NCBI RefSeq assembly: GCF_000385215.1
Contig: NZ_ARQK01000043.1
Location: 1-64,000, forward strand
Source: Thioalkalivibrio thiocyanoxidans ARh2
GTDB taxonomy: Bacteria > Pseudomonadota > Gammaproteobacteria > Ectothiorhodospirales > Ectothiorhodospiraceae
Length of the DNA: 64,000 bases
Direction of reading: 5' to 3'
The notes under the pieces were generated by a model that worked only from the letters and a program-made list of their open reading frames with translations, was not told the DNA's origin and searched no databases. Of the stretch, positions 1 to 51,100 are shown in pieces. Position 1 is the first letter of the stretch, and every line of letters begins with the position of its first letter. The position numbers were made by a program, and so were the translations under genes.

Positions 1-562
1 GCGGAGGCATGCCGCCATTGCCCTCGTCGTCGTCATCTTCGTCCGCAGGGCCCGCAGCATCACCGGCCTGGACCATCTGCGGGGGCATACCGCCATTGCC
101 TTCGTCGTCGTCATCTTCTTCGGCCGGAGGCGCACCAGCTTCACCCGCCTGGGTCAGCTGCGGGGGCATACCGCCACCATTGCCCTCGTCATCGTCATCT
201 TCTTCGGCCGGGGGCGCACCAGCTTCACCCGCCTGGGTCAGCTGCGGGGGCATACCGCCACCATTGCCCTCGTCGTCGTCATCTTCTTCGGCCGGGGGCG
301 CACCAGCTTCACCCGCCTGGGTCAGCTGCGGGGGCATGCCGCCGTTGCCCTCATCTTCGTCGTCGTCATCGGCCGGCGGTGCGGCAGGCTCGCCCGCCTG
401 GACCATCATCTGGGGCGGCATACCACCCTGTTCTTCCTGTTCATCCTCGTCCGGTGCCTCGGCACCTTCGCCCATGCCCTGGGCTTGCGCGGCGCTCAGG
501 CCACCGAGGGCGAACAGGGAACTCATGGCGATGGCAAGAGCAGATTTACGGAAAGTCGACAT
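1..562 (-). CDS. Exported acidic tandem-repeat protein, partial (C-terminus beyond the window)
   Basis: I do not recognise a named family. The frame starts at ATG 562, preceded by a strong ribosome binding site (GAAGGAGAG), and stays open to the left edge, giving 187 visible residues. Residues 1-28 form a clear Sec signal peptide with a basic start, a hydrophobic core and a likely AQA|Q cleavage site. The mature part is built from repeats of about 28 residues. Each has a cluster of Asp/Glu, then EGNGG, then MPPQ followed by L, M or V, then QAGEAGAPPA. No Cys, no membrane segment and no enzyme motif are visible. The acid clusters suggest cation binding or a disordered, highly charged periplasmic or surface protein; that is inference. 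It sits directly downstream of a two-component system, behind its own sigma-54 promoter, so it is probably the output of that system. The plus-strand open frame over the same bases is a shadow with a Ser-rich translation. Confidence 0.85.
   Translation of the reverse strand, partial: MSTFRKSALAIAMSSLFALGGLSAAQAQGMGEGAEAPDEDEQEEQGGMPPQMMVQAGEPAAPPADDDDEDEGNGGMPPQLTQAGEAGAPPAEEDDDDEGNGGGMPPQLTQAGEAGAPPAEEDDDDEGNGGGMPPQLTQAGEAGAPPAEEDDDDEGNGGMPPQMVQAGDAAGPADEDDDDEGNGGMPP
7..417. repeat. Tandem repeat of about 84 bp inside the acidic protein gene
   Basis: Units begin near 7, 85, 166, 250 and 334, so lengths are 78, 81, 84, 84 and 84 bp. All are multiples of three, and the reading frame is kept. 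The units at 166 and 250 differ by a single base, which implies recent duplication or gene conversion. The array continues past the left edge. There are no unique spacers, so it is not a CRISPR array. Confidence 0.9.
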
Positions 563-646
563 AGTGCTTCTCTCCTTCATTTGAAGTTTCAGCACAGTCA
601 ACGGAATGGGCTCGATTGGCTTTCGGTTGACTGCACCCAAGGAGAT

Positions 647-662
647 AGCAGGGCCCGTGCCA
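647..662 (-). promoter_or_regulatory. Sigma-54 promoter (-24/-12) for the acidic repeat protein
   Basis: Read on the minus strand, the sequence is TGGCACG, then GGCC, then CTGCT. It matches the RpoN consensus TGGCACG-N4-TTGCW with one mismatch and has exact GG-N10-GC spacing. Transcription would start near 636, leaving a leader of about 74 nt before the ATG at 562. The only gene it could serve is the acidic repeat protein. An NtrC-family activator gene ends 190 bp upstream. Confidence 0.75.
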
Positions 663-735
663 ACAACGGCCAAAGAACTCGAGATCGTTTTTGTTCAGAT
701 ACTTACAAATACACACGCTTTCACGGTGCGGACCT

Positions 736-823
736 GGGTCACGGGGAAGCCCGGGTCAAAATGACACATGGGTCAGGGCGACCCGGGTCAGTACGGCCCA
801 TCGAGGGCAAGGGTCAGTCTGAC
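736..823. promoter_or_regulatory. Cluster of GGGTCA / TGAC half-sites, candidate enhancer (UAS)
   Basis: GGGTCA occurs at 736, 753, 770, 785 and 811 on the plus strand. The first three are 17 bp apart. The half-sites form inverted pairs: GTCA-N3-TGAC at 755-765 and again at 813-823, GACC-N2-GGTC at 731-740, and the perfect palindrome GACCCGGGTC at 780-789. The cluster lies about 100-190 bp upstream of the predicted sigma-54 start site, the usual place for enhancers of NtrC-type activators. Binding by the neighbouring regulator is inference. Confidence 0.55.
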
Positions 824-850
824 AGGACGCACGACCACAAACACAGGCGC

Positions 851-2287
851 TCATTCCCGGGGAGAATCTGCCTCGCTCTCGCCGAGCTTGCGATAGAGCG
901 TCTTGCGGCCGATCCCCAGTATGCGTGCAGCGCGCTGCTTGTTGCCCTCCACATGCTCCAGGACCCGGCGTACATAGGCCTGTTCGACCTCGGCCAAACT
1001 GGGCCAGTGACTGTCATCGCCGGTTCCGGGTACCGGCAGACCGGCGCCGGAAACAACCCCGGACGATTCATGCGATCCGCTCGTGGCCTCTGACTGGCGC
1101 ACACGCTCGGGCAGATCCCGCAGCTCGATCACCTCGCCGGTTGCGAGGGTCGCCGCACGCTCCATCAGGCTGGCCAGCTCGCGGACGTTCCCGGGAAAGC
1201 TGTAGCGCAGCAAGGCGCGCATCGCCTCGGGACTCAGCTCACGCGCGGGTAGCCCGCGCGCCAGCGCCTGTTCGCGCAGGAACTGCTGCGCCAGGCGCTC
1301 GATGTCATCCCCCCGTTCGCGCAGGGGCGGTATCTCGATGCGAAAGGTTTCGAGGCGGTAATAGAGGTCCTCGCGGAATTGTTCCTGGCGGATCCGTTCC
1401 TGCAGGTCCTGGTGTGTGGCGGCCACGATGCGCACGTCCGTCTCGATCTCCTCGTTCGAGCCCACCGGGCGGACCCGCCCGTCCTGCAGCAGCCGCAGCA
1501 GCTTGCTCTGCATCGCCACCGGCATCTCGGCGATCTCGTCCAGGAACAGCGTGCCACCATCGGCTTCCGTGAAAAGACCCCGGCGCGCGCCCTTGGCCCC
1601 ACTGAAGGCCCCGGCGACATGCCCCAGCAGCTCCGACTCCAGCAGGGTCTCCGGGATCCCCGCGCAGTTCAGCGCAATGAACGGCCCGTTGGCGCGGTCA
1701 CTTTCCGCATGCAGGGCGCGGGCAACCAGCTCCTTGCCGGTCCCCGATTCGCCGGTAATGAGCACGCTGCCATCGGCCGCGGCGATCCGCCGAATCAGGT
1801 CGTGCAACTTGAGCATGGCCGGGCTCTTGCCCTGCATTCCATGGAAGCTCTCGTCGGCAGCGAGGACCTCGCGATACTGGCGCACCTCCGCCCGCAGGCG
1901 GCGGGCCTCGGCGACCCGCTCGGCCGCCAGGCGCAGGTGGTCCAGATCGACCGGCTTGGTCAGGAAGTCATCCGCACCCGCCTTCAGTGCCGTCACGGCC
2001 TGATCGATGGTGCCGAAGCCAGTGAGCATGATGAACCCGGGTACCGGCACCGTGTCGCGCGCCACCTCCAGAACGCGGAAGCCATCGGCACCGGGCAGAC
2101 GCAGATCACTGACCACCAGCGAAACGGTTTGCTGGCGCAGGACCTGCTCGGCCTCCTCGGCCGACTCCACCGCGGTGACCGTATAACCCACCTCGGCCAG
2201 TTCCTCGGCCAGGAGCTCGCGATGGCCCCGGTCGTCCTCGACGATCAGCACGCGATCGTTCAGTTCGTCACCCCGGGACATGCTCAT
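851..2287 (-). CDS. Sigma-54-dependent response regulator, NtrC/ZraR type
   Basis: A 478-residue regulator with the full NtrC domain order. The receiver domain (about 12-125) has phospho-acceptor D61 in the VVSDLRLPG context. The AAA+ domain (about 150-385) has Walker A GESGTGKE at 179-186 and Walker B GGTLFLDE near 244-251. The C-terminal Fis-type helix-turn-helix (about 435-472) contains NKQRAARILGIGRKTLYRK. The sigma-54 contact loop reads GAFSGA (226-231) instead of the usual GAFTGA, a conservative change. The start ATG overlaps the stop of the upstream kinase by four bases, so the two are translationally coupled. When phosphorylated it should activate RpoN promoters; the nearest candidate is at 647-662. 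I cannot assign the stimulus, so I give no gene symbol. Confidence 0.92.
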   Translation of the reverse strand: MSMSRGDELNDRVLIVEDDRGHRELLAEELAEVGYTVTAVESAEEAEQVLRQQTVSLVVSDLRLPGADGFRVLEVARDTVPVPGFIMLTGFGTIDQAVTALKAGADDFLTKPVDLDHLRLAAERVAEARRLRAEVRQYREVLAADESFHGMQGKSPAMLKLHDLIRRIAAADGSVLITGESGTGKELVARALHAESDRANGPFIALNCAGIPETLLESELLGHVAGAFSGAKGARRGLFTEADGGTLFLDEIAEMPVAMQSKLLRLLQDGRVRPVGSNEEIETDVRIVAATHQDLQERIRQEQFREDLYYRLETFRIEIPPLRERGDDIERLAQQFLREQALARGLPARELSPEAMRALLRYSFPGNVRELASLMERAATLATGEVIELRDLPERVRQSEATSGSHESSGVVSGAGLPVPGTGDDSHWPSLAEVEQAYVRRVLEHVEGNKQRAARILGIGRKTLYRKLGESEADSPRE

Positions 2288-3819
2288 GCCGCTCCTCCAC
2301 CTGTTGCCTGCGCGTCCTGGACCGACTCCGACCCGGACGGTTCCGACTCCCCTTCGCGACAGGCGCCGGAAGCGAGCGGCAGCGTGACTACAAAGCGCGT
2401 GAGTTGCGGGTCGTCGCGATCCAGCCTTACCTGACCGCCATGATCCTCCAGCGCCACCTGTGCGACCGCCAGCCCCAGGCCAGTCCCCTCGCCCGTCGGC
2501 TTGGTCGTAAAGAAGGGTTCGAAAAGGCGTTCGGCCTGCTCATCCGAGATGCCGCGCCCCACGCGCGGGCCGTCGTCGGCCACCACGAATTCGAGCGTGT
2601 CGCCCTGGCAAGACCAGCTCACCCGTACGCATTCGGCAGCGGCCTGCGCGGCGTTGTCGATCAGGTTCTCCAGGGCCTGCCCCAGACGCAGCCGGTCGGC
2701 CGCCACGGTCAGCGGCCCTCCATCCAGATCAAAGCGTACCCGCTCGCGGCCCTTGCCACGCTCCTGCACGCGCGCCACGATCTCGCGCACCAGCCCTTCC
2801 AGTTCCAGCGGGCGCTGCTGCAGTGGATTGCGTCGCGCGAAATCCAGGAGCTGGCGCACGATAATCTCCACGCGCTCGAGTTCGGTCTGCAGTTCCTTCA
2901 TCTCCTTGTGCGCGGGTTCGCCCTCGGGAAGTCGTCGCGCGGCGCGCTGGGCGCGCCCGGCGATAATCCCCAGGGGCGTGCCCAGTTCGTGCGCGACCCC
3001 GGCCGCCAGCTGGCCGATGGCCGCCAGCTTTTCCGAGTGACGCAGTTTTTCCTCCAGCCGCGCCTGCTCCTCACGCTGGGCCTGCAACGCGGCCTCGGAG
3101 GCCTCGCGGCGCTCCAGCATCCCGTTCATCGTGATCGCCAGACGGCGCAGTTCCCAGGGGCCCTTCTCCGGGGCTCGCAGCCCGCGCTGGCCCTCGCCGA
3201 TATCCCGCATGGCGCCGATCAGGCGCGCCACATGACGCCCGACCGCACGATGGTGGCCAATCAGCACCACCAGCAGGAACAGCACGCTGACCGCCAGCAT
3301 CACCATGCCTCCCTGCCAGCGCAGCTGCGAGACATAGGCGCGGAACGGCGAGACGTCGCGGGTCACCTGCAACAGACCGACGATGCGCCCGGCGGAGTCC
3401 GACAGCGGCAGGAAGAACGAGAACACCTCGCGTCCCTGGTGCTCGTCGAACGCACCGAGGCTGCCGGTCTCGCTGATCGCCTGGGCCTCGCCCGGGTGGC
3501 GGATCGTGGGGCTGGGCGGTCCGCTGGTAGCGACCATGTCGCCCTGGGCGTCATAGACGTAGACGCCAAACACCTGGTCGATCTGGAACAGCGAGTCCAG
3601 TGACTGCTGCACCGTGGTCACGTCCTGATCCATCATCGCGGTGGCTACCGGCAGGCGAATGGAGCGTGCGACCAGCTCGATATCGGCCTGCATGCGGTTT
3701 TCCATCTGGGTCTGGAACTCCTGCAGCCCGAGCGTCACCGTACCCCCGACCACCAGCAGCAGGGGCAGCAGGACAAACAGCAACACCGCATTGCGCAGAC
3801 TGTTCAGGCGTGTGGGCAT
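2284..3819 (-). CDS. Membrane sensor histidine kinase, partner of the sigma-54 regulator
   Basis: A 511-residue kinase. Transmembrane segment 1 is at about 10-32. A periplasmic domain of about 135 residues follows, with a Cache/PAS-like stretch (VFGVYVYDAQGD near 83-94). Transmembrane segment 2 is at about 171-188, then HAMP and coiled coil (190-265), and a HisKA domain with phospho-acceptor H277 in GVAHELGTPLG. The C-terminal HATPase has the N box (NLIDNAAQAA) and G boxes (DDGPRVGRG, GEGTGLGLAV). The HELGTPL motif is typical of kinases paired with NtrC-type regulators. It is the first gene of the kinase-regulator operon and overlaps the next gene by four bases. The ligand cannot be read from the sequence; the large periplasmic domain implies an envelope or small-molecule signal. 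Confidence 0.92.
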   Translation of the reverse strand: MPTRLNSLRNAVLLFVLLPLLLVVGGTVTLGLQEFQTQMENRMQADIELVARSIRLPVATAMMDQDVTTVQQSLDSLFQIDQVFGVYVYDAQGDMVATSGPPSPTIRHPGEAQAISETGSLGAFDEHQGREVFSFFLPLSDSAGRIVGLLQVTRDVSPFRAYVSQLRWQGGMVMLAVSVLFLLVVLIGHHRAVGRHVARLIGAMRDIGEGQRGLRAPEKGPWELRRLAITMNGMLERREASEAALQAQREEQARLEEKLRHSEKLAAIGQLAAGVAHELGTPLGIIAGRAQRAARRLPEGEPAHKEMKELQTELERVEIIVRQLLDFARRNPLQQRPLELEGLVREIVARVQERGKGRERVRFDLDGGPLTVAADRLRLGQALENLIDNAAQAAAECVRVSWSCQGDTLEFVVADDGPRVGRGISDEQAERLFEPFFTTKPTGEGTGLGLAVAQVALEDHGGQVRLDRDDPQLTRFVVTLPLASGACREGESEPSGSESVQDAQATGGGAA

Positions 3820-3887
3820 CGGACGTTCGGGGGCCAGGACATCGCTGCCATGTTAGGCAGGGCTTTGGCGGGATGCGAATTCCGGGC

Positions 3888-3917
3888 AAAAAAAAAGCGC
3901 GGGTCGAAGCCCGCGCC
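3888..3917 (-). terminator. Rho-independent terminator
   Basis: On the minus strand a 7-bp stem GCGCGGG / CCCGCGC with a six-base loop is followed at once by nine T. It is the strongest intrinsic terminator in the window, yet no protein gene ends upstream of it. It therefore terminates either a small RNA or the leader of the kinase operon, whose first codon is about 70 bp further on. Confidence 0.85.
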
Positions 3918-3981
3918 AAGAAAACCACCAAAGGAGGATGGAGGAGTCCGCTGATGCTGACAGGGGGTCAACAAACAGCGT
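3888..3981 (-). ncRNA. Candidate small RNA or attenuated leader with anti-Shine-Dalgarno motif
   Basis: A transcript from about 3981 to the terminator at 3888 would be near 94 nt. In order it has a hairpin (TGAC-N5-GTCA flanked by GCTG/CAGC), then an unpaired pyrimidine-rich stretch containing CTCCTCC and TCCTCCTT, then the terminator. TCCTCCTT is the exact complement of an AAGGAGGA ribosome binding site, a layout typical of trans-acting regulatory RNAs. The alternative is a leader that attenuates the kinase-regulator operon lying 70 bp downstream. The evidence is structure only. Confidence 0.4.
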
Positions 3982-3987
3982 ATGCAA

Positions 3988-4016
3988 ATCTTCTAATATA
4001 GCGATCTTCTTGTCAA
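3988..4016 (-). promoter_or_regulatory. Possible sigma-70 promoter for the small transcript
   Basis: A perfect TTGACA (4016 down to 4011) is followed after 17 bp by GAAGAT. That has the two best-conserved -10 bases (A2, T6) but only three matches of six. Start would fall near 3981. It could drive the small transcript, the kinase operon, or both. Confidence 0.35.
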
Positions 4017-4182
4017 GCGGCCTCGTACGCAGGGGGTCGTACTCGTGGGCCACTCCGCTCGACCGCTTTTTTCAAGACCTGCACACCCTTAAGGACGCAG
4101 AGGCGCGCGTTCTATTCCCGGATTCTCGTCACGAACTGAAAAAAGGCACAATCGTGTTCTCACTACGGATTGATGCAGCCCT

Positions 4183-4863
4183 ATGCTCCGCCACTTGAGC
4201 CATCCCGTGACCGCGCTGGCCCAGAACGCCACCCTGATCTGGTGCGACCGGACACTTGCCGCCGCCTGGGTGGACCCCGGGGCCGAAGCCGACACGTTGA
4301 TCGAGATCGCAAGGCGAGAAGAAGTACGGCTGGACTGCATCCTGCTAACCCATGGCCACCTCGACCACGTTGGTGCGGCTGCCGAGATGGCCCGGCGCTG
4401 CAACATCCCGATCCTGGGCCCACAGGCCGAGGATGCCTTCTGGCTGGATCAGCTGCCGATGCAGTGCCAGATGTTCGGTTTTCCCGAGATGCCTGCGCTG
4501 GTACCCGACCGCTGGCTGCACGATGGCGAGAAACTATCGCTGGGCGAGACAACGCTGGAGGTACTCCACTGCCCGGGGCACACCCCGGGTCATATCGTGT
4601 TCTTCGATCGCGAAAGCCGCCTCGCCCTGGTGGGTGACGTGCTGTTTCATGGTGCCATCGGGCGCAGCGACTTCCCGCGCGGCAACGGACCGCAACTGAT
4701 CGAATCCATCACCCAGCGCCTCTGGCCGCTGGGCGACGATGTGCGCTTCGTCCCCGGACACGGTCCGGAGTCGACCTTCGGGGAGGAGCGCCGCAGCAAC
4801 CCGTTTGTCGGGGATGCGGCTCTCGCCGCTGGCGGCCAGCCTGGCCGCGGACGCTATTATTGA
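4183..4863 (+). CDS. Metallo-beta-lactamase-fold hydrolase (glyoxalase II / YcbL type)
   Basis: A 226-residue, single-domain metallo-hydrolase. It shows the full metal-binding set: THGHLDH at 56-62, the third-ligand His in HCPGHTPGH near 131, the bridging Asp in LVGDVLF, and the last His in VPGHGPES. Length and motifs fit the small YcbL-like branch of hydroxyacylglutathione hydrolases rather than full GloB (about 250 residues with an extra helical domain). It likely cleaves a thioester such as S-lactoylglutathione in the cytoplasm. The true gloB is not seen at its usual place beside rnhA in this window. The stop codon lies inside a short palindromic repeat (4862-4888). The gene is monocistronic, convergent with htpX. 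Confidence 0.85.
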   Translation: MLRHLSHPVTALAQNATLIWCDRTLAAAWVDPGAEADTLIEIARREEVRLDCILLTHGHLDHVGAAAEMARRCNIPILGPQAEDAFWLDQLPMQCQMFGFPEMPALVPDRWLHDGEKLSLGETTLEVLHCPGHTPGHIVFFDRESRLALVGDVLFHGAIGRSDFPRGNGPQLIESITQRLWPLGDDVRFVPGHGPESTFGEERRSNPFVGDAALAAGGQPGRGRYY

Positions 4864-4888
4864 TGCGTTTCGCTTCGCTCAACGCATC
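4862..4888. repeat. Short palindromic element over the hydrolase stop codon
   Basis: GATGCGTT (4862-4869) and AACGCATC (4881-4888) are exact inverted repeats around an 11-base loop rich in CGCTTCGCTC. Elements of this look are dispersed in many proteobacterial genomes (from memory, not checked). It supplies part of the TGA stop of the upstream gene and may help end transcription. Confidence 0.5.
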
Positions 4889-4916
4889 CTACGAGCGGAC
4901 CCGCCCCCAAACGAAG

Positions 4917-4939
4917 AAGGCCGCCCTGTGGGCGGCCTT
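4917..4939. terminator. Bidirectional terminator hairpin between convergent genes
   Basis: A 10-bp stem AAGGCCGCCC / GGGCGGCCTT with a three-base loop stands between the hydrolase (plus) and htpX (minus). The A and T bases at the stem ends give short T-runs in either direction. Confidence 0.7.
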
Positions 4940-4969
4940 GCCGATTCCTGCCTGACGACCCGATACGGA

Positions 4970-5857
4970 TCAGCTGTTTGCCCGCAGCGCCGCGATGCGC
5001 TGCTCGATCGGCGGGTGGCTCATGAACAGCTTCTTCAGCCCCTGGGCCATGCCCCCACGGATGCCGAAGGCGGCCATCTGATCGGGCATGTCCACCGGAC
5101 GTCCCGACGCGCGCGCCAGCGACTCCAGCGCACCGATCATCTTGTCGCGACCGGCGAGCTTCGCGCCCGCCTCGTCGGCCCGGAACTCGCGCTGACGGGA
5201 GAACCACATGACGATAATCGAGGCGAGGATCGCCAGGATGATCTCGGTGACGATGGTCGTGATCCAGAACGCCGGGCCATGGCCCGCCTCGTTCTTGAAC
5301 ACCACGCGGTCGACGAAATGACCGGCCACACGTGCCAGGAAGATCACGAAGGTGTTCACCACGCCCTGGATCAGCGCCAGCGTGACCATGTCGCCATTGG
5401 CCACGTGCCCGACCTCGTGGCCCAGCACAGCCTCGACCTCGCCCTGGCTCATGTTCTGCATCAGCCCGGTGCTGACCGCGACCAGCGCGTTGTTCTTGCT
5501 CATGCCGGTAGCGAAGGCGTTCGGGTCCGGGGAGTCGTAGATGCCCACCTCCGGCATGCCGATCCCGGACTCGCGGGCCTGGCGCTGCACCGTCTCCACC
5601 AGCCACTGCTCGGTCGCATTGCGCGGCTTGTCGATCACATGGACCTTCATGGTCTTCTTCGCCATCCACTTGGAGATGGCCAGCGAGATGAAGGAGCCGC
5701 CAAAGCCGAACACCGCGGCAAAGATCAGCAGCGCATTGAGGTCGAGGTGGACCCCCTCCTCGTCGAGGATGCGCTCCACACCCAGCAGGCGCAGGGTGAT
5801 GCTGAGCACGATAATGATGGCGAAGTTCGTCGCCAGAAACAGCGCAATACGTTTCAT
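4970..5857 (-). CDS. htpX: Membrane zinc metalloprotease HtpX
   Basis: A 295-residue M48 family protease of the inner membrane that degrades misfolded membrane proteins alongside FtsH. Two N-terminal membrane segments lie at about 5-25 and 42-62. The zinc motif HEVGH is at 147-151, followed by two more hydrophobic stretches. The third zinc ligand is the Glu in FRADEAGA. Length matches the family (about 285-300). The C-terminus carries the usual [15 protein letters not shown] block. The gene is single, separated from parC by 111 bp. Confidence 0.95.
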
Positions 5858-5968
5858 GAAGCCTTCCTGTACTCCATCAATTAAATCTTCGGGATGTGCT
5901 TATAGTCGGGGCATGGCCGCAAAATTCAAGCCCGACCCCCTCCACAGACCACGGTTGGTCCCCGCGGT

Positions 5969-8230
5969 TCAGGCCGGACGCACCTCCATCCAGTCGGCGT
6001 TCTGGTAGCCGCGCGGCAGCTGGCGCCCGCGCCGGGCGCGCTCGCCAACGTACTCCGCCCACTCGGCCGGGGCCAGCGCCTTGAAGCGCTTGCCGGCGTG
6101 CACGACCAGGGTGTCCTGCGGCCCCAGCACGGCCACGTCGAGCACCCGTTCGGAGCTATCCTTGAGGGCCGCGGACGGGATGCCGATCAGCTTGTTGCCC
6201 TTGCCGCGCGCCAGCTCCGGCAGCTCGGTGGCCGGGAACAGCAGCAGATAACCACGCGTGGTGACGACGGCGATGTGATCCTCGTGCGGGTTGCGCACCG
6301 GCGCCGGCTGCAGCACGGCGGCCCCGTCGGGCACCGTGAGCACGTTCTTGCCGGCCTTCTGCCGCCCCAGCAGATCGCCCAGCTTCGCGACGAAGCCGTA
6401 GCCGTGATCCGAGCCCAGCAGCCAGCGGTCTTCCTCCGCCCCGGTGGCCATGCCGACAAACCGCGCGCCCTCCGGCGGATTCACGCGGCCGGACAGTGGC
6501 TCGCCCTGCCCGCGCGCGGACGGCAGGGTATGGGCGGGGATGGTATAGGTGCGGCCGGTGGAGTCGATGAACACGACCGGCTGGTTGCTGCGCCCGGTGA
6601 CTGCGGCCTGGAAGGCATCCCCGGCCTTGTAGTTCAGGCCGCGGGCGTCCACGTCGTGGCCCTTGGCTGCGCGCGCCCAGCCCTTCTCCGACAGCACGAT
6701 GGTCAGCGGCTCGGTGGGCACCAGCGCGGATTCGTCCAGCGCCTGCGCGGCGGCGCGCTGGACCAGCGGCGAGCGGCGTTCGTCGCCGTAGTCCGCGGCG
6801 TCCTTCTCGATCTCGCGGCGCACCTGGGTGCGCAGGCGACGCTCCGACCCCAGGGTCTTCTCCAGCTGGTCGCGCTCCTGCGCCAGTTCATCCTGCTCGC
6901 CACGGATCTTCATCTCCTCGAGCTTCGCCAGGTGGCGCAGCTTCAGCTCCAGGATCGCCTCGGCCTGGATGTCGGACAGGCCAAAGCGGCTCATCAGCTC
7001 GGGCTTCGGTTGGTCGTACTCGCGGATGATCGCGATTACCTCGTCGATGTTGAGATAGGCGATCAGCAGGCCTTCCAGCACATGCAGTCGCGCCTGCACC
7101 TTCTCCAGGCGCCACTGCAGGCGCCGGCGCACGGTCTCGATGCGGAAGTCCAGCCACTCCGACAGCAGCCCGGCCAGGTCGCGCACCTGCGGGCGCCCGT
7201 CAAGGCCGATCACGTTCATGTTCACGCGGTAGGTCTTTTCCAGGTCCGTGGTCGCGAACAGGTGCGCCATCAGCGCCTCGACATCGACGCGGTTCGAGCG
7301 CGGGGTGATCACCAGGCGGGTCGGGTGCTCGTGGTCGGACTCGTCGCGCAGGTCCTCGACCATTGGCAGCTTCTTCGCGCGGATCTGGCTGGCGATCTGC
7401 TCCAGCAGCTTCGCCCCGGAGACCTGGTGCGGCAGCGCGGTGACCACGAGGTCGTCGCCTTCGCGTTCATAGCGTGCCCGCGCGCGGATCGAGCCCTGCC
7501 CGGTCTCGTAGACCCGGCTCAGCTCGGCGGGCGGGGAAATGATCTCGGCCTCGGTGGGAAAGTCCGGCGCGGGCAGGTGCTCGCACAGCTCCGCGACCGT
7601 CGCCCTGGGGTTTTCCAACAGGTGCACGCAGGCCGCGGCCACCTCGCGCAGATTGTGCGGCGGGATGTCGGTGGCCATGCCCACCGCGATCCCGGAGCCG
7701 CCGTTCAGCAGCACGTTCGGCAGCCGCGCCGGGAGCATCTTCGGCTCCTCCAGCGCGCCGTCGAAGTTCGGCACCCAGTCCACCGTGCCCTGCCCCAGCT
7801 CCGAGAGCAGCAGCTGTGCGTAGCGCGACAGGCGTGACTCGGTGTAGCGCATCGCGGCGAAGGACTTGGGATCGTCCGGCGAGCCCCAGTTGCCCTGCCC
7901 GTCGACGAACGGGTAGCGGTAGGAGAAGGGCTGCGCCATCAGCACCATCGCCTCGTAGCACGCCGAGTCGCCGTGCGGATGGAACTTGCCGAGCACGTCA
8001 CCGACGGTGCGCGCCGACTTCTTGTACTTGGCCGTGGCCGAGAGCCCCAGCTCGCTCATCGCGTAGATGATGCGGCGCTGCACGGGCTTGAGTCCGTCGC
8101 CGATGTGCGGCAGCGCACGGTCCAGGATCACGTACATGGAGTAGTCCAGGTACGCCTTCTCGGTAAAATCCTTCAGCGGCAGCTGCTCGCCACTGTTGGC
8201 GAACAGGCTGGGGGTCTCGATATCGGTCAT
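5969..8230 (-). CDS. parC: DNA topoisomerase IV subunit A
   Basis: A 753-residue type IIA topoisomerase subunit that cuts and rejoins DNA to decatenate daughter chromosomes together with ParE (not in the window). The catalytic Tyr is Y129 in RYTESRLS. The quinolone-resistance region reads [12 protein letters not shown], with Ser89 and Glu93 at the positions equal to E. coli Ser80 and Glu84, so it has the sensitive-type residues. The C-terminal beta-pinwheel domain is present but of the shorter ParC kind. ATG 8230 follows a GAGAG ribosome binding site. The Met-Asp-Ile start and total length fit ParC rather than GyrA. Confidence 0.96.
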
Positions 8231-8338
8231 CGGCTCTCTCGAAGGGCGGATGGATCACCATGGCGGCCTTTTACCGCACGCCCGGCCCGCGTACTGTAGC
8301 GATCACGCCGCCACCGTTCCATTCCCGGGGAGAATGCC

Positions 8339-9763
8339 GTGCTGGGTACCGGCTGGACCGCCAGTATCACTGCCTTTGCCGCTTTTGCACTGGCCGCCGC
8401 CAGTGTGATGCACGCACTGCTCCAGCGCCGCGAGACCGGCACTGTCATCGCGTGGGTGGGCCTGATCGTTCTGCTGCCGGTGGCAGGATCGATCCTGTAC
8501 TGGATGTTCGGGGTCAACCGCATCCGGCGCCGCGCCCACGCCCTGCGCGAGGGCCATCTGCTGGTCGACCCCGCGGCGCACAACACCAACGAGACGGGCA
8601 TTCCGCCACGCTGGTCACGACTGCTCGGCTGTGGCGATCGGCTCGCGCCGTTTCGCGCCAGCACAGGCAATTCGGTACGCCCGCTGCTCAGCGGAGACCA
8701 GGCCTACGCGGCGATGCTCGAGGCGATCGATGGCGCGTCACAGAGCATCACCCTGGCGACCTACATCTTTGATTACGACGTGGTCGGACAACGCTTCGTG
8801 CGCCACCTCAAAGCGGCCCGCGACCGCGGTGTCGAGGTGCGTGTGCTGATCGACGGTATCGGTGCCCGCTACAGCCGCCGCAATACCCTGCGTTTTCTCA
8901 GGCGGGCCGGCATCCCGGCCGCCGCCTTCATGCCCGTGCATCACCTGCCGCGCACCCTCGCCGCATTCAATCTGCGCAATCACCGCAAGATGCTGCTGGT
9001 GGATGGCGAACACGGCTTCACCGGCGGCATGAATATCCGCCGCGGGCACAGCGCGAGCGATCCGGGACCGCACCCTATACAGGATCTGCACTTCGAGGTT
9101 CGCGGACCGATCTGCCTGCAGCTCCAGCGGATATTCGCGGAAGACTGGCAATTCAGCACCCAGGAGAAACTGGAAGGTGCACCCTGGTTCCCGGAGATGT
9201 CGCGCCCGGCCGGTGCGCTCTTGTGCCGCGCCCTGCCGGACGGCCCCGATGAGGACTTCGAGGTCATCAAGTTCACCCTGCTGGCCGCAATCGCGGAGGC
9301 GCGCGAACGCATCACCGTGGTCACGCCCTACTTCCTGCCCGACCTGGAGCTGCTGGGGGCCCTCAAGGCCGCAGCGTTACGGGGTATCGAGGTTGATCTG
9401 CTCCTGCCCGCACGCAACAACCTGCGCCTGGTCGAATGGGCCGGCCGCCCGCTGCACGGAGAGATCCTCACGCGCGGGTGCCGCATCTGGCTAACGCCCC
9501 CTCCGTTCAACCACTCCAAGCTGATGCTGGTCGACCGTGAATGGATCCTGGTGGGATCGGCCAACTGGGACCCGCGCAGCCTGCGGCTCAACTTCGAGTG
9601 CAACCTCGAATGCCTGGACCGCGAGCTGGCACAACAGCTGGCCGACTGGGCGGAGGACCTGCGTTCGCGTTCCCACCCGCTGACGCTGGACGATGTTCAC
9701 GCCCGCAGCCTGCCCGCCCGACTGCGCGACGGCGCCGCACGCCTGCTGACCCCGTACTTGTAA
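8339..9763 (+). CDS. cls: Cardiolipin synthase, two-HKD phospholipase D type
   Basis: A 474-residue enzyme that joins two phosphatidylglycerols into cardiolipin and glycerol at the inner membrane. The start is GTG 8339, placed by a GGGGAG ribosome binding site six bases upstream. Two membrane helices lie at about 8-28 and 36-55, as in ClsA. Both HKD motifs are intact: HRKMLLVD near residue 218 with GGMN after it, and HSKLMLVD near 393 with GSANWDPRS after it. Length fits ClsA (about 480). It is divergent from parC. Confidence 0.93.
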   Translation: MLGTGWTASITAFAAFALAAASVMHALLQRRETGTVIAWVGLIVLLPVAGSILYWMFGVNRIRRRAHALREGHLLVDPAAHNTNETGIPPRWSRLLGCGDRLAPFRASTGNSVRPLLSGDQAYAAMLEAIDGASQSITLATYIFDYDVVGQRFVRHLKAARDRGVEVRVLIDGIGARYSRRNTLRFLRRAGIPAAAFMPVHHLPRTLAAFNLRNHRKMLLVDGEHGFTGGMNIRRGHSASDPGPHPIQDLHFEVRGPICLQLQRIFAEDWQFSTQEKLEGAPWFPEMSRPAGALLCRALPDGPDEDFEVIKFTLLAAIAEARERITVVTPYFLPDLELLGALKAAALRGIEVDLLLPARNNLRLVEWAGRPLHGEILTRGCRIWLTPPPFNHSKLMLVDREWILVGSANWDPRSLRLNFECNLECLDRELAQQLADWAEDLRSRSHPLTLDDVHARSLPARLRDGAARLLTPYL

Positions 9764-9803
9764 GTCGCCCCCGCGGCGCGCAAACCGGCCCCGGCTGTGC
9801 TTA

Positions 9804-9866
9804 ACTCTCAAGAGAGTATGGGTTTTCGCCGCTAACACTAAAGGGAAAACCCTGACCCAGGGGGTC
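9804..9866 (+). promoter_or_regulatory. Structured leader with three consecutive hairpins before a GGDEF-EAL gene
   Basis: Three inverted repeats follow each other: ACTCTC-N2-GAGAGT (9804-9817), GGGTTTTC-N17-GAAAACCC (9820-9852) and GACCC-N3-GGGTC (9854-9866). The last one contains the purine-rich ribosome binding site and ends four bases before the ATG at 9871, so it could mask translation. The sequence does not match the c-di-GMP riboswitch core that I know. Confidence 0.45.
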
Positions 9867-9870
9867 GATC

Positions 9871-12762
9871 ATGGACGGTCCACTGATCGCAGCGCTGTAC
9901 CTGCTCGCCGGGCTATGCGTATACGCCACGGCGACCCACCTGCTGCACGCCACCCAAAGCCTGCGCCGCGCGGAACACCTGCTGTTTGCCGCGATGTGCC
10001 TGCTGGTTGCAGGTGCCGCGATCAGCGTTGCCCTGTCGTACCAGGCAGCAACCATTGAGGCCTATACCGGCCCCATCAAGGCGTATTACGCCCTGATCGC
10101 GCCTCTGTATGTGCTGTTCGCTGCCTTCATCGCCCGCTATACCGGCACCCCCGCGCGCGGCCTGCTCGTAATCCTGGGGGCCCTGGTGGTCGTCGTCTGG
10201 GTCGTCAATGTCCAACAGCCCTATGGGTTGCAGCTGGGCGAGGCCGCGGAGCTGCGCACGGTGACCCTGCCCTGGGGCGAGACGGTATCGCTCGCGGCAG
10301 GCCCCTCGAGCCCGTGGTTTCTGCTGGGGCTGTCCGGTCTGCTGCTGGTGTTCGGCTTCGCCCTGTGGGCACTGTTGCATCGGTGGCTGCGCGAGGGTGG
10401 CACGAGCCCCCTGGTCCTGCTGGGAGCGATCGTGCTGTTCCTGCTGGGGACGGCCCAGGGCGCCCTGGTACGGCTTGGTGCCATCGATTCCATTCCCCTC
10501 GCGGTGTTCGGCTATCTGGGTATGATCCTGGTCATGAGCCTGGCGCTGCACCGGGAGACCCAGGAACGCGTGCGTGAATCGGAACACCGCTTTCGCGACC
10601 TGGTGCAGCAAGCCCCCGTCGCGGTAGAGGTGCTGACGCCCGAGGGCCGAGTGCGCCAGGTGAACGCCGCCTGGGAAGCGATGCACGGGCGCGATGGCGA
10701 ACGCGTGCGGGATTCCAGCGTGTTGCACTGCCCTGATCCCATCGACGGACGCATCACCGAGGCGGTCCGCGCAGCGGCTCGGGGCGAACGGCAGTACATC
10801 GGGCCGTTTGCTGATCGAACGGGGCTCGACCCTGTCACCCAACAGGCGGGGAACCGCTGGTTGAAGGGTTGCGTTTACCCCCTGAAGGACCACCGGGGCG
10901 AGGTGCAGGACGTCATCGTGATGCAGGAGGACATCACGCTCGCCCGGCGTGGCGAAGAGGCCCTGCGCGTGATCGCCCAGGGTTTTCGCGCCCACGACCG
11001 GGAGAGCTTCTTCCAGAATCTGGTACTGCGGCTGCGCGAGGTCTTTCGTGCCGACTATGCCCTGGTGGGTGTCAATGTCCCGGACATGCCTGGCCATATC
11101 GAGACAAAGGCACTTTGTCAGGGTGGCGAGCTGGTGGACAACATCCGCTACGCCCTGACCGGAACCCCCTGTGACGAAGTGCTCGCGCGCGGCCTGTGCG
11201 TCTACCCCGACCACGTTCAGGAGCTATTTCCGCAAGACGGGCTCCTGGTGGAGATGGGGGCTCGCAGCTATCTCGGGGCTCCCATGCTCGACAGCCAAGG
11301 GCGCGAGCTCGGACACATCGCCATCGTCAATCGCTACCCGCTGGACGAGACCGAGCAGGCAGCCGGCATCCTCGAGATCTTTGCCGACCGGGCCGCGGCC
11401 GAACTCGAACGACTGGAAGGCGAGGAACATATCCGCCGACTTGCCTATCACGACCCGCTAACCGGCCTGGCCAATCGCACCCAGCTGCACGATGCGCTGA
11501 CCCGGGATCTGGATCTGGCCTATCACGGGGGCCTGCATGGCGGGCTCATCCTGATCGATCTGGACCACTTCAAGACCATCAACGATGCCCTGGGGCACGC
11601 GGTCGGTGACACCGTGCTGGCCGCGGTCGCCGACCGCCTGCGCCAGAACGCACCCGAAAAGGCGCTGGTGGTACGCCTGGGCGGAGACGAGTTCGCCACC
11701 CTGATCCATCCCCGACGCGCATCACGTCAGGCGACCGAGGCCACGGTCAACGCCGCGGCCCACCGGCTGCTGGACGCCCTGCAGCACCCGATTGTGGTGG
11801 GGGAACGCACCTTCAGCGTCGGCGCCAGCCTGGGCTGCGTGCTGTTCCCGGACGCAGGTCAGACCTCCTCGGATGCCTTGCGCCATGCCGACATCGCGCT
11901 GTATCAGGCGAAGCGGGCGGGACGCGGTGGAGTGCAGTTCTACCGCCATGCCCTGCAGGACGAGGCTCACGCCCGCCTGCAGATCGAGGAGGGGTTGCGC
12001 CAGGCCCTGGCGAACCGGGAGATGCATCTGGACTACCAGGCCCAGTTCGATGCCCAGGGGCATTTGATCGGTGTCGAGGCACTGTTGCGCTGGACACACC
12101 CGGGACTGGGCCCGGTCAGCCCGGCACTGTTCATCCCCATCGCCGAGGAGACCGGGCTGATCCACTCCATCGGCACCTGGGTCATCGAACACGCCCTGGA
12201 TAACCTTCGGGGCTGGCACGCCCGGGGCCTGCCGCTGCCGCCTCGCGTGGCCATCAACATCTCGCCCTGGCAGCTGGCCCGCCCCGATTTCGTCGAACAG
12301 CTCAGGGAGCGCGTGGAGGCTACCGAGCTGGACCCCGGCCGGATCACCCTGGAGGTGACCGAGTCGGGTCTGCTGCGCGACCTGTCCGACGCCATCGCCA
12401 AGCTGCGGGCCCTGCGCAAGTTCGGTGTCCAGGTGGCACTGGACGATTTCGGCACGGGGTATTCGTCGCTGGCCTATCTGCGCGATCTGCCGCTGGACGA
12501 GCTCAAGATCGACAAGTCGTTCATCGACGAGCTGGTGCACAAGGGCGAACAGATGCTGATCGAAAATATCCTCGATATCGGCCACAACATGGGCCTGCGG
12601 GTGATCGCCGAGGGCGTGGCGCAGGAGGCCCAGCGCCAGCGCCTGCTGGCCCTGGGCTGCACACGTTTCCAGGGGTTCCTCTACGGCGAACCGATCGCGG
12701 AAGACGAATTCGCGGCCTGGCTGGAACGTAACGTCACCCCGGCCGTGCACCGCCAAGGCTGA
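9871..12762 (+). CDS. Membrane PAS-GAF-GGDEF-EAL protein (c-di-GMP synthesis/hydrolysis)
   Basis: A 963-residue inner-membrane signalling protein. Residues 1-225 contain about seven hydrophobic helices, a 7TM-type sensor. A PAS domain (about 235-355) and a GAF domain (about 370-515) follow. The GGDEF domain (about 530-690) has an intact RLGGDEF but no RxxD inhibitory site before it. The EAL domain (about 705-955) has EALLRW, the DDFGTGYSS loop and AEGV, so hydrolysis looks possible. Both activities are chemically plausible, and the net direction cannot be told from sequence. It ends directly against the convergent GGDEF gene with no base between the stop codons. The leader is unusually structured (9804-9866). 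Confidence 0.92.
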   Translation: MDGPLIAALYLLAGLCVYATATHLLHATQSLRRAEHLLFAAMCLLVAGAAISVALSYQAATIEAYTGPIKAYYALIAPLYVLFAAFIARYTGTPARGLLVILGALVVVVWVVNVQQPYGLQLGEAAELRTVTLPWGETVSLAAGPSSPWFLLGLSGLLLVFGFALWALLHRWLREGGTSPLVLLGAIVLFLLGTAQGALVRLGAIDSIPLAVFGYLGMILVMSLALHRETQERVRESEHRFRDLVQQAPVAVEVLTPEGRVRQVNAAWEAMHGRDGERVRDSSVLHCPDPIDGRITEAVRAAARGERQYIGPFADRTGLDPVTQQAGNRWLKGCVYPLKDHRGEVQDVIVMQEDITLARRGEEALRVIAQGFRAHDRESFFQNLVLRLREVFRADYALVGVNVPDMPGHIETKALCQGGELVDNIRYALTGTPCDEVLARGLCVYPDHVQELFPQDGLLVEMGARSYLGAPMLDSQGRELGHIAIVNRYPLDETEQAAGILEIFADRAAAELERLEGEEHIRRLAYHDPLTGLANRTQLHDALTRDLDLAYHGGLHGGLILIDLDHFKTINDALGHAVGDTVLAAVADRLRQNAPEKALVVRLGGDEFATLIHPRRASRQATEATVNAAAHRLLDALQHPIVVGERTFSVGASLGCVLFPDAGQTSSDALRHADIALYQAKRAGRGGVQFYRHALQDEAHARLQIEEGLRQALANREMHLDYQAQFDAQGHLIGVEALLRWTHPGLGPVSPALFIPIAEETGLIHSIGTWVIEHALDNLRGWHARGLPLPPRVAINISPWQLARPDFVEQLRERVEATELDPGRITLEVTESGLLRDLSDAIAKLRALRKFGVQVALDDFGTGYSSLAYLRDLPLDELKIDKSFIDELVHKGEQMLIENILDIGHNMGLRVIAEGVAQEAQRQRLLALGCTRFQGFLYGEPIAEDEFAAWLERNVTPAVHRQG

Positions 12763-50753: not shown

Positions 50754-51008
50754 TCACGCCTCCGCCTCAGCGGTGGCGGTCGCTTCACCTTCGTTATTCA
50801 TGCGCACCTGACGGGACGGGACGATGGTCGAGATCGCGTGCTTGTACACCATCTGCGAGACCGTGCTGCGCAACAGGACCACGAACTGATCGAAGGACTC
50901 GATCTGCCCCTGCAACTTGATGCCGTTGACCAGATAGATCGAAACGGGAATACGGTCTCGACGCAGCGCGTTCAGGAAGGGTTCCTGCAGCATTTGCCCT
51001 TTGGCCAT
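50754..51008 (-). CDS. hfq: RNA chaperone Hfq
   Basis: An 84-residue Sm-like protein that forms hexamers and pairs small RNAs with mRNAs. The N-terminus [19 protein letters not shown] is canonical, the Sm1 region has [13 protein letters not shown] and the Sm2 motif is YKHAIST. The acidic C-terminal tail is short, as in many non-enteric species. It sits between miaA and hflX. Relevant to the small RNA candidate near 3.9 kb. Confidence 0.98.
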
Positions 51009-51100
51009 CAGTGCATTCCTTGGTTGTTATTCTTCAATCTCGCCACACGCCAGAGGCTCCTCCACCAAACCCTGACGGGGCCTCTTCAGAGAGTAGCACA

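Follow-up and report, generated by a model that had tools for sequence, protein, structure and literature searches.

A predicted anti-Shine-Dalgarno small RNA in Thioalkalivibrio and further Gammaproteobacteria, probably related to the betaproteobacterial family RF02278

Results and discussion

Organisation of the locus

The window, that is, the whole stretch of 64,000 nt from Thioalkalivibrio thiocyanoxidans ARh2 analysed here, carries a candidate small RNA gene on its minus strand at 3888..3982. It is situated between a divergent gene for a metallo-beta-lactamase-fold hydrolase (4183..4863, plus strand; Pfam Lactamase_B) and a gene for a sensor histidine kinase (2284..3819, minus strand; Pfam HisKA, HATPase_c), which lies outside the RNA gene and is followed by a gene for a sigma-54-type response regulator. 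On the minus strand, the gene is preceded by the -35 element TTGACA (4011..4016), which recurs upstream of the core at other loci, and, 17 bases past it, by the -10 element GAAGAT (3988..3993), which was fixed by comparison. With a start 6–8 bases past the -10 element and an end at the terminator, the RNA would have a length of approximately 93–95 nt, in agreement with the length of the conserved unit. At the 5'-end, the consensus fold of 31 sequences shows a hairpin with a C-rich loop (3949..3980, minus strand). Between this hairpin and the terminator lies ACUCCUCCAUCCUCCUUUGGUGGUUUUCUUGG (3947-3916, minus strand). This part includes a first anti-Shine-Dalgarno stretch, ACUCCUCC (3940..3947, with CTCCTCC at 3946-3940), the sequence TCCTCCTT at 3938-3931 and, as part of the invariant core, a mini-hairpin CC.CCA / UGG.GG (3925..3944), the loop of which, UCCUCCUU, is the second anti-Shine-Dalgarno stretch. 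The 3'-end is an intrinsic terminator (3888..3917, minus strand) with a stem of 8 pairs, 7 of them G-C, at 3917-3896 and a T-run down to 3888.

A first-pass annotation had suggested here either a small RNA or an attenuated leader of the kinase operon. TTGACA, both anti-Shine-Dalgarno stretches and the strong terminator are indeed all present on the minus strand where it had placed them. It was also right that no protein gene on the same strand closely precedes the terminator: the next one upstream, htpX, ends at 4970 and the gene at 4183 is divergent. The kinase, said to begin about 70 bp beyond the terminator, starts at 3819, 69 bases beyond 3888. Hfq is encoded in the window as claimed (50757-51026, minus strand), but the word "nearby" was generous for a distance of approximately 46.7 kb.

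The 98-nt stretch 3985-3888 folds with -37.7 kcal/mol, compared with a mean of -23.0 in 200 shuffles (z -4.6). In positions 1-12000 of the window 13 terminator-like sites were found against a shuffle mean of 5.2; one of them, at 4939-4917, exceeds the terminator of the RNA gene in stem length (10 pairs), although its T-run is poorer. At the beginning of the window, positions 9-584 are repetitive; units resembling PPLPSSSSSSSAGG recur there in a single frame.

Conservation of sequence and structure

A 201-nt query found a counterpart (E < 1e-6) in 28 of 30 Thioalkalivibrio genomes, including the source genome, in all seven genomes from other genera of the family and in four of 21 genomes from other families. 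The two genomes of the genus without a match, G006 and G023, are 80% complete. Two alignments were used. The first contains 39 sequences and omits L047 and L048, which are of a 3'-UTR type, and L049, which is without the core; the second, with 31 sequences, additionally leaves aside L037, L039 and L041-L046, which have different 5' parts.

Conservation across the 39 sequences is complete or at least 90% in ACUCCUCCAUCCUCCUUUGGUGGU, and the same applies to the first anti-Shine-Dalgarno stretch. The two-hairpin structure is paired in 98.4% of the cells of this alignment, as compared with 36–54% when it is slid along. Changes on both sides were found in three of the eight terminator pairs (39 sequences) and, with pairing retained, in five of the seven pairs of the 5' hairpin (consensus fold, 31 sequences), whose sequence varies outside Thioalkalivibrio. 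The number of further pair types in the 39 sequences did not rise above shuffled controls (378 of 500 shuffles were as high). The stem of the mini-hairpin shows no covariation in the 39 sequences because the core hardly varies; by eye, several beta-type loci have CCACC ahead of the CU-rich loop and GGUGG behind it. Thus, hairpin and CCUCC motif, which were expected to be conserved in relatives if a regulatory RNA existed, are so, with a near-invariant core and with covariation in 5' hairpin and terminator. When the 30 genomes of the genus were searched for the exact complement of the core, 28 of them gave a single occurrence each. A second complement, CAAAGGAGGATGGAGGAG, searched with up to two mismatches in these 30 genomes, returned the RNA's own gene in 28 and, in addition, one other place. 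Open reading frames cross this stretch; a protein-coding reading was rejected, as the conservation is that of a paired RNA with small length changes.

Distribution

For a covariance search in related genomes, also proposed in the first-pass annotation, we used a model of core and terminator (R1) and regarded matches with E of 1e-8 or less as strong. Strong matches were obtained at 110 places in 102 of 369 genomes of the class, 95 of which have one, six two and one three. The set was compiled twice by hand, giving 101 and 102 genomes, with G337 (9.8e-9) making the difference; at E 0.001 this genome has seven matches, mostly weak. With E 0.001 as threshold, R1 matched 149 of the 369 class genomes and 46 of 299 genomes in a sample of the phylum. 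From the weaker loci of the latter sample 12 were drawn (L284, L286 and L287 belong to the same class), two of which, L277 and L288, were short and left unread. Among the ten inspected, seven were plain terminators, L276 and L278 had a CU-rich stretch and L287 was beta-like. Matches around E 0.001 were therefore distrusted and only those with E of 1e-8 or less counted as strong. In the source genome itself, three weak R1 matches (15–20 bits) were considered as possible paralogues and turned out to be other terminators.

The exact 20-base core pattern was found in at least 118 stretches of named genomes; among the matches listed are Thiocapsa, Chromatium, Halochromatium, Thiohalocapsa, Thiothrix, Beggiatoa, Thiomargarita, Sedimenticola, Arenicella and many gammaproteobacterial MAGs. 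There was no match in the plasmids, phages and E. coli genomes searched, and this absence speaks against a mobile element. In a Thiotrichaceae MAG three core copies are arranged in tandem, approximately 100–120 bases apart (L103:5785-6025).

Promoter and terminator across loci

At 115 of 163 distinct loci TTGACA is located 105-45 bases upstream of the core; the remaining 48 are without TTGACA in this place. When all spacings from 12 to 21 bases were compared for the 115 loci, an A at position 2 together with a T at position 6 of the downstream hexamer (TTGACA-N17-NANNNT) was present in 107 at a spacing of 17 bases, versus only 0–30 at the other nine spacings. A hexamer at 12 bases, mostly TATTAG, is on average slightly nearer to TATAAT (3.54/6 versus 3.43/6 at 17), a spacing too short for a sigma-70 promoter. 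A -10 element at 15 bases had been considered and was discarded after this count. In the named records, among the matches listed, TTGACA occurs in 69 of 116 expected stretches but in 11/113, 4/111 and 0/109 of those farther upstream, and a T-run follows the core in 116/118 as against 12/110 and 11/116 in control stretches. A -10 motif looked for earlier in these records was not enriched (9/116 versus 12/113) in a stretch that ended before the actual -10.

These data point to a sigma-70-type promoter, TTGACA-N17-GAAGAT, with a poor -10 hexamer. A sigma-70 scan of positions 1-12000 reported no promoter because this hexamer is GAAGAT. The -10 of the family is mostly GAAACT or GAAGAT, with an unusual G at the first position beside a perfect -35. 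Such a G-initial -10 may make the promoter dependent on an activator or on a specific sigma factor.

Relation to known RNAs

At gathering level, Rfam gave no match in the whole window. Among the weak matches RF02278 ranks first (34.1 bits, E 1.5e-5); it aligns end-to-end with the window RNA but stays below its gathering cut-off of 50 bits. This family, Betaproteobacteria_toxic_sRNA, comprises the double-hairpin RNAs NcS03/05/27/62 of Burkholderia and bdhR1. Common to both is CUCCUCCA ahead of a CU-rich hairpin loop, followed by a terminator with T-run; hence, the order of elements in RF02278, S17 and NcS27, from a CUCCUCC stretch via the CU-rich hairpin loop to the T-run terminator, is also found in the window RNA. 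Unlike RF02278, the latter has a shorter hairpin with a U-U mismatch and its own 5' hairpin in front, and it occurs outside the Betaproteobacteria.

Applied to the 369 class genomes, RF02278 reached its cut-off in two and E 0.001 or less in 103, while none of 14 well-known control genomes matched. Of 115 RF02278 places, 86 coincide with strong R1 places and 29 do not; conversely, 24 of the 110 strong R1 places are not RF02278 places. We take the class in the genome collection to include Betaproteobacteria, following GTDB. Both genomes above the cut-off belong to one family, f107, which was therefore regarded as betaproteobacterial. Five f107 loci (L261, L262, L273, L275 and L279) contain UUGUCUCCUC, a CU-rich hairpin and GGUGGAUU, and in all five COQ7 is encoded approximately 0.6–0.8 kb from the RNA. 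Two further beta-like loci have no COQ7 match; at L274 the RNA lies close to L13, whereas L271 has none of the tried genes in its vicinity. In the window, COQ7 is not beside the RNA.

In the parts of the publications considered here, the CU-rich stretches of RF02278-type RNAs are predicted to cover ribosome sites and overexpression of Burkholderia NcS27 slows planktonic growth (PMC5688073), and NcS27 has been described as regulating metabolic shutdown (PMC10987360). For Bordetella S17, the portion of PMC11722255 used here reports a location adjoining coq7, a likeness to RF02278/bdhR1 and a block of 27 nt that shows full conservation in a range of Betaproteobacteria; repression by pairing at the ribosome site of an mRNA was shown with compensatory mutations. 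The short form, S17S, which RNase E releases from a 190-nt precursor, has defined targets and hardly slowed E. coli (PMC11722255). As far as the same source goes, the window RNA resembles S17/S17S in having a conserved block, predicted pairing sites matching ribosome sites and a T-run terminator, and the coq7 neighbour of S17 recurs at the five f107 loci. Unlike the RNase E-cut S17S, the RNA described here has a conserved promoter directly ahead of the short form. With the Neisseria RNAs NmsRA/NmsRB it has in common anti-Shine-Dalgarno stretches and a TTGACA promoter, to judge from part of PMC5362039; the weak Rfam match to NmsRb (18.3 bits, E 0.89) gives no support for common descent.

Taken as a part of the explanation as a whole, it is therefore highly probable in our view that the window RNA represents a gammaproteobacterial branch of RF02278 / NcS27-bdhR1 / Bordetella S17 below the Rfam threshold, which would share its descent with S17. 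Such a branch looks hitherto unrecorded. The core string CCUCCUUUGGUGG was absent from the papers searched in full text, the word "gammaproteobacteria" does not occur in the main text of PMC11722255, and no gammaproteobacterial member is described in the literature searched, which consisted of main texts and included few subscription papers. Concerning small RNAs of relatives, the part of PMC8092127 considered names RtT, SRP and other RNAs.

Predicted targets

The best predicted target is a gene for a FadL-type outer-membrane protein (Pfam Toluene_X). Just ahead of its start codon lies 5'-CAAGAAGACCACCAAAGGAG-3', with which 20 bases of the small RNA (3936-3917; minus strand, 3917..3936) could pair over the ribosome site by 19 Watson-Crick pairs and one G-U pair. 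The calculated duplex has -38.3 kcal/mol, compared with a best value of -28.3 and a median of -19.9 for 38 long ORFs of the window. In 15 genomes this site is invariant in 20 of 20 bases, as against 17/70 upstream and 3/12 downstream. The 15 homologues were the best by protein score, one per genome; those of G007 and G003, for which no start was found, and second copies in G001, G013 and G026 were left unscored. With up to three mismatches, the 20-mer fits three places in the source genome, namely the small RNA gene, the gene for the FadL-type protein and a gene for a DsrE-like exported protein, whose similar site (-33.5 kcal/mol) is absent from the other 29 genomes of the genus. Read backwards, the 20-mer does not fit anywhere in the 30 genomes. 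More distant FadL-like genes are without the site, and so is, within three mismatches, the FadL homologue of G007, which is 67% identical over residues 29-438. Since the site is confined to one Thioalkalivibrio clade, FadL as a target does not account for a core that is conserved across families.

A class-wide test for targets, with CCACCAAAGGA 4–11 bases before ATG, gave a null result: 34 of 149 carriers of the RNA versus 38 of 220 non-carriers (P 0.23). Eight matches at the RNA's own locus had been removed beforehand, which lowered the number of matching genomes from 77 to 72; read backwards, the pattern fits 43 of the 369 genomes. A GGAG subset, chosen afterwards, differed (19/149 versus 8/220, P 0.0017), which gives only a hint of targets in carriers.

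How much target choice such an RNA would have is the point at which a different reading has to be weighed, namely a generic mimic of the 3' tail of 16S rRNA, which titrates Shine-Dalgarno sequences and lowers overall translation at growth arrest. The loop UCCUCCUU resembles the anti-Shine-Dalgarno tail of 16S rRNA, the core is invariant over families though the one target found changes, and the class-wide test showed no enrichment. The slower growth on overexpression of RF02278 members would also fit (PMC5688073 and PMC11722255, in the parts used). However, the pairing at FadL extends upstream of the Shine-Dalgarno sequence and is kept while the flanks diverge, and in the portion of PMC11722255 already referred to S17S acts on defined targets with little effect on E. 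coli growth. We regard such a mimic as unlikely and favour an RNA that selects its targets.

Neighbouring genes

Within Thioalkalivibrio the kinase follows the RNA at 28 of 28 loci found with the 201-nt query, and the same gene order exists in named records of the genus, including L059, L089, L100, L107 and L129; another named locus, L072, ends too soon past the RNA to show it. Together with the position of the RNA on the same strand, 69 bases ahead of the kinase, this would suit an attenuated leader of the kinase/response regulator operon, in which polymerase would mostly terminate at 3888 and, on a signal, continue into the kinase gene at 3819. Yet conservation beyond one genus, which such a leader would require, was not found: in loci of about 3 kb the kinase is beside the RNA at none of seven from other genera of the family and at none of four from other families. 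At five named loci outside the genus there are kinase or regulator matches of 23–43%, none directly downstream on the same strand.

The other neighbours vary as well. Seven genes were tried, of which COQ7 and L13 were identified by Pfam and the others by reading the sequences. Among the matches listed for 118 named loci, the gene for ribosomal protein L13 is the commonest neighbour, with the same orientation as the RNA and downstream of it in 58; a ferredoxin-like gene lies upstream in 27, QueA is convergent in 14, COQ7 is divergent upstream in 13, the RNA is placed between Tgt and QueA, both on the opposite strand, in six, and 37 have none of the seven genes within 1500 bases.

The structure likewise argues against a leader. 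The consensus fold of 31 sequences, calculated up to the terminator and without pseudoknots, consists of three separate hairpins with no antiterminator pairing, and the conserved unit ends at the terminator. Beyond it, in the stretch corresponding to window positions 3820-3887 (minus strand), a further conserved block separates terminator and kinase: by eye, of the 16 loci in the closer Thioalkalivibrio clade 15 have TAACAT or TACCAT in line. It is perhaps the kinase's own promoter. In most of these loci, again by eye, TTCGC precedes it.

Because neighbours vary and the kinase is limited to Thioalkalivibrio, the RNA is, as judged from the compared loci, an independent gene and not a kinase leader; we hold the leader to be very improbable. 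Of the alternatives in the first-pass annotation, the small RNA is thus the one that is well supported, by conservation, covariation, promoter/terminator architecture, the relation to RF02278/S17 and one conserved mRNA site, whereas synteny and fold tell against the attenuated leader. An additional leader role may exist at the L13 loci, and transcription may at times run on into the kinase gene. Scarcely credible is an origin in the rplM (L13) operon, as its leader or as a by-product, that led to a stand-alone small RNA and left a mere relic in Thioalkalivibrio: the frequent L13 neighbour would agree with it, but promoter, core, hairpin and terminator are also constrained in Thioalkalivibrio, which does not have L13 next to the RNA, and the loci between Tgt and QueA have both genes on the other strand.

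Proposed function

Most probably, then, 3982-3888 (minus strand) encodes an independently transcribed, trans-acting small RNA of about 93–95 nt that would block translation and probably depends on Hfq. Transcription would begin at TTGACA-N17-GAAGAT and end at the intrinsic terminator. Behind a variable 5' hairpin, the almost invariant ACUCCUCCAUCCUCCUUUGGUGGUU would present two anti-Shine-Dalgarno stretches, one single-stranded and the other in a hairpin loop. By pairing with ribosome binding sites that offer extra complementarity upstream of GGAG, the RNA would block translation, with the mRNA of the FadL-type outer-membrane protein as a conserved target in one Thioalkalivibrio clade. As a regulator it would be of an ordinary kind, namely a conserved small RNA with anti-Shine-Dalgarno stretches that probably represses translation.

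A regulator described only from Betaproteobacteria in the literature covered here would appear to span sulfur-oxidising and other Gammaproteobacteria. The Rfam cut-off misses this gamma branch, with two of 369 genomes over the cut-off as compared with 102 that are strong by the gamma model. For environmental sulfur bacteria this provides a candidate global post-transcriptional regulator, a model for annotation and a testable target. It also raises the question of what keeps the letters of an anti-Shine-Dalgarno core almost constant when the targets of the RNA change. As a speculative and on balance rather doubtful answer, one small RNA with a core like the 3'-end of 16S rRNA may have been kept since before the split of Beta- and Gammaproteobacteria at a coq7-rplM locus, at first to slow initiation in general when growth is arrested; targets such as FadL or the sigma-54 regulators of Bordetella would have been added per lineage.

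Finally, in two genomes of the genus a similar CU-rich hairpin and a terminator stand directly past the stop codon of a DsrE-like gene (L047 at about 1489 and L048 at about 1418, on the reverse strand of each locus). These hairpins possibly belong to a small RNA of the 3'-UTR type, whose pairing stretch would be almost identical.
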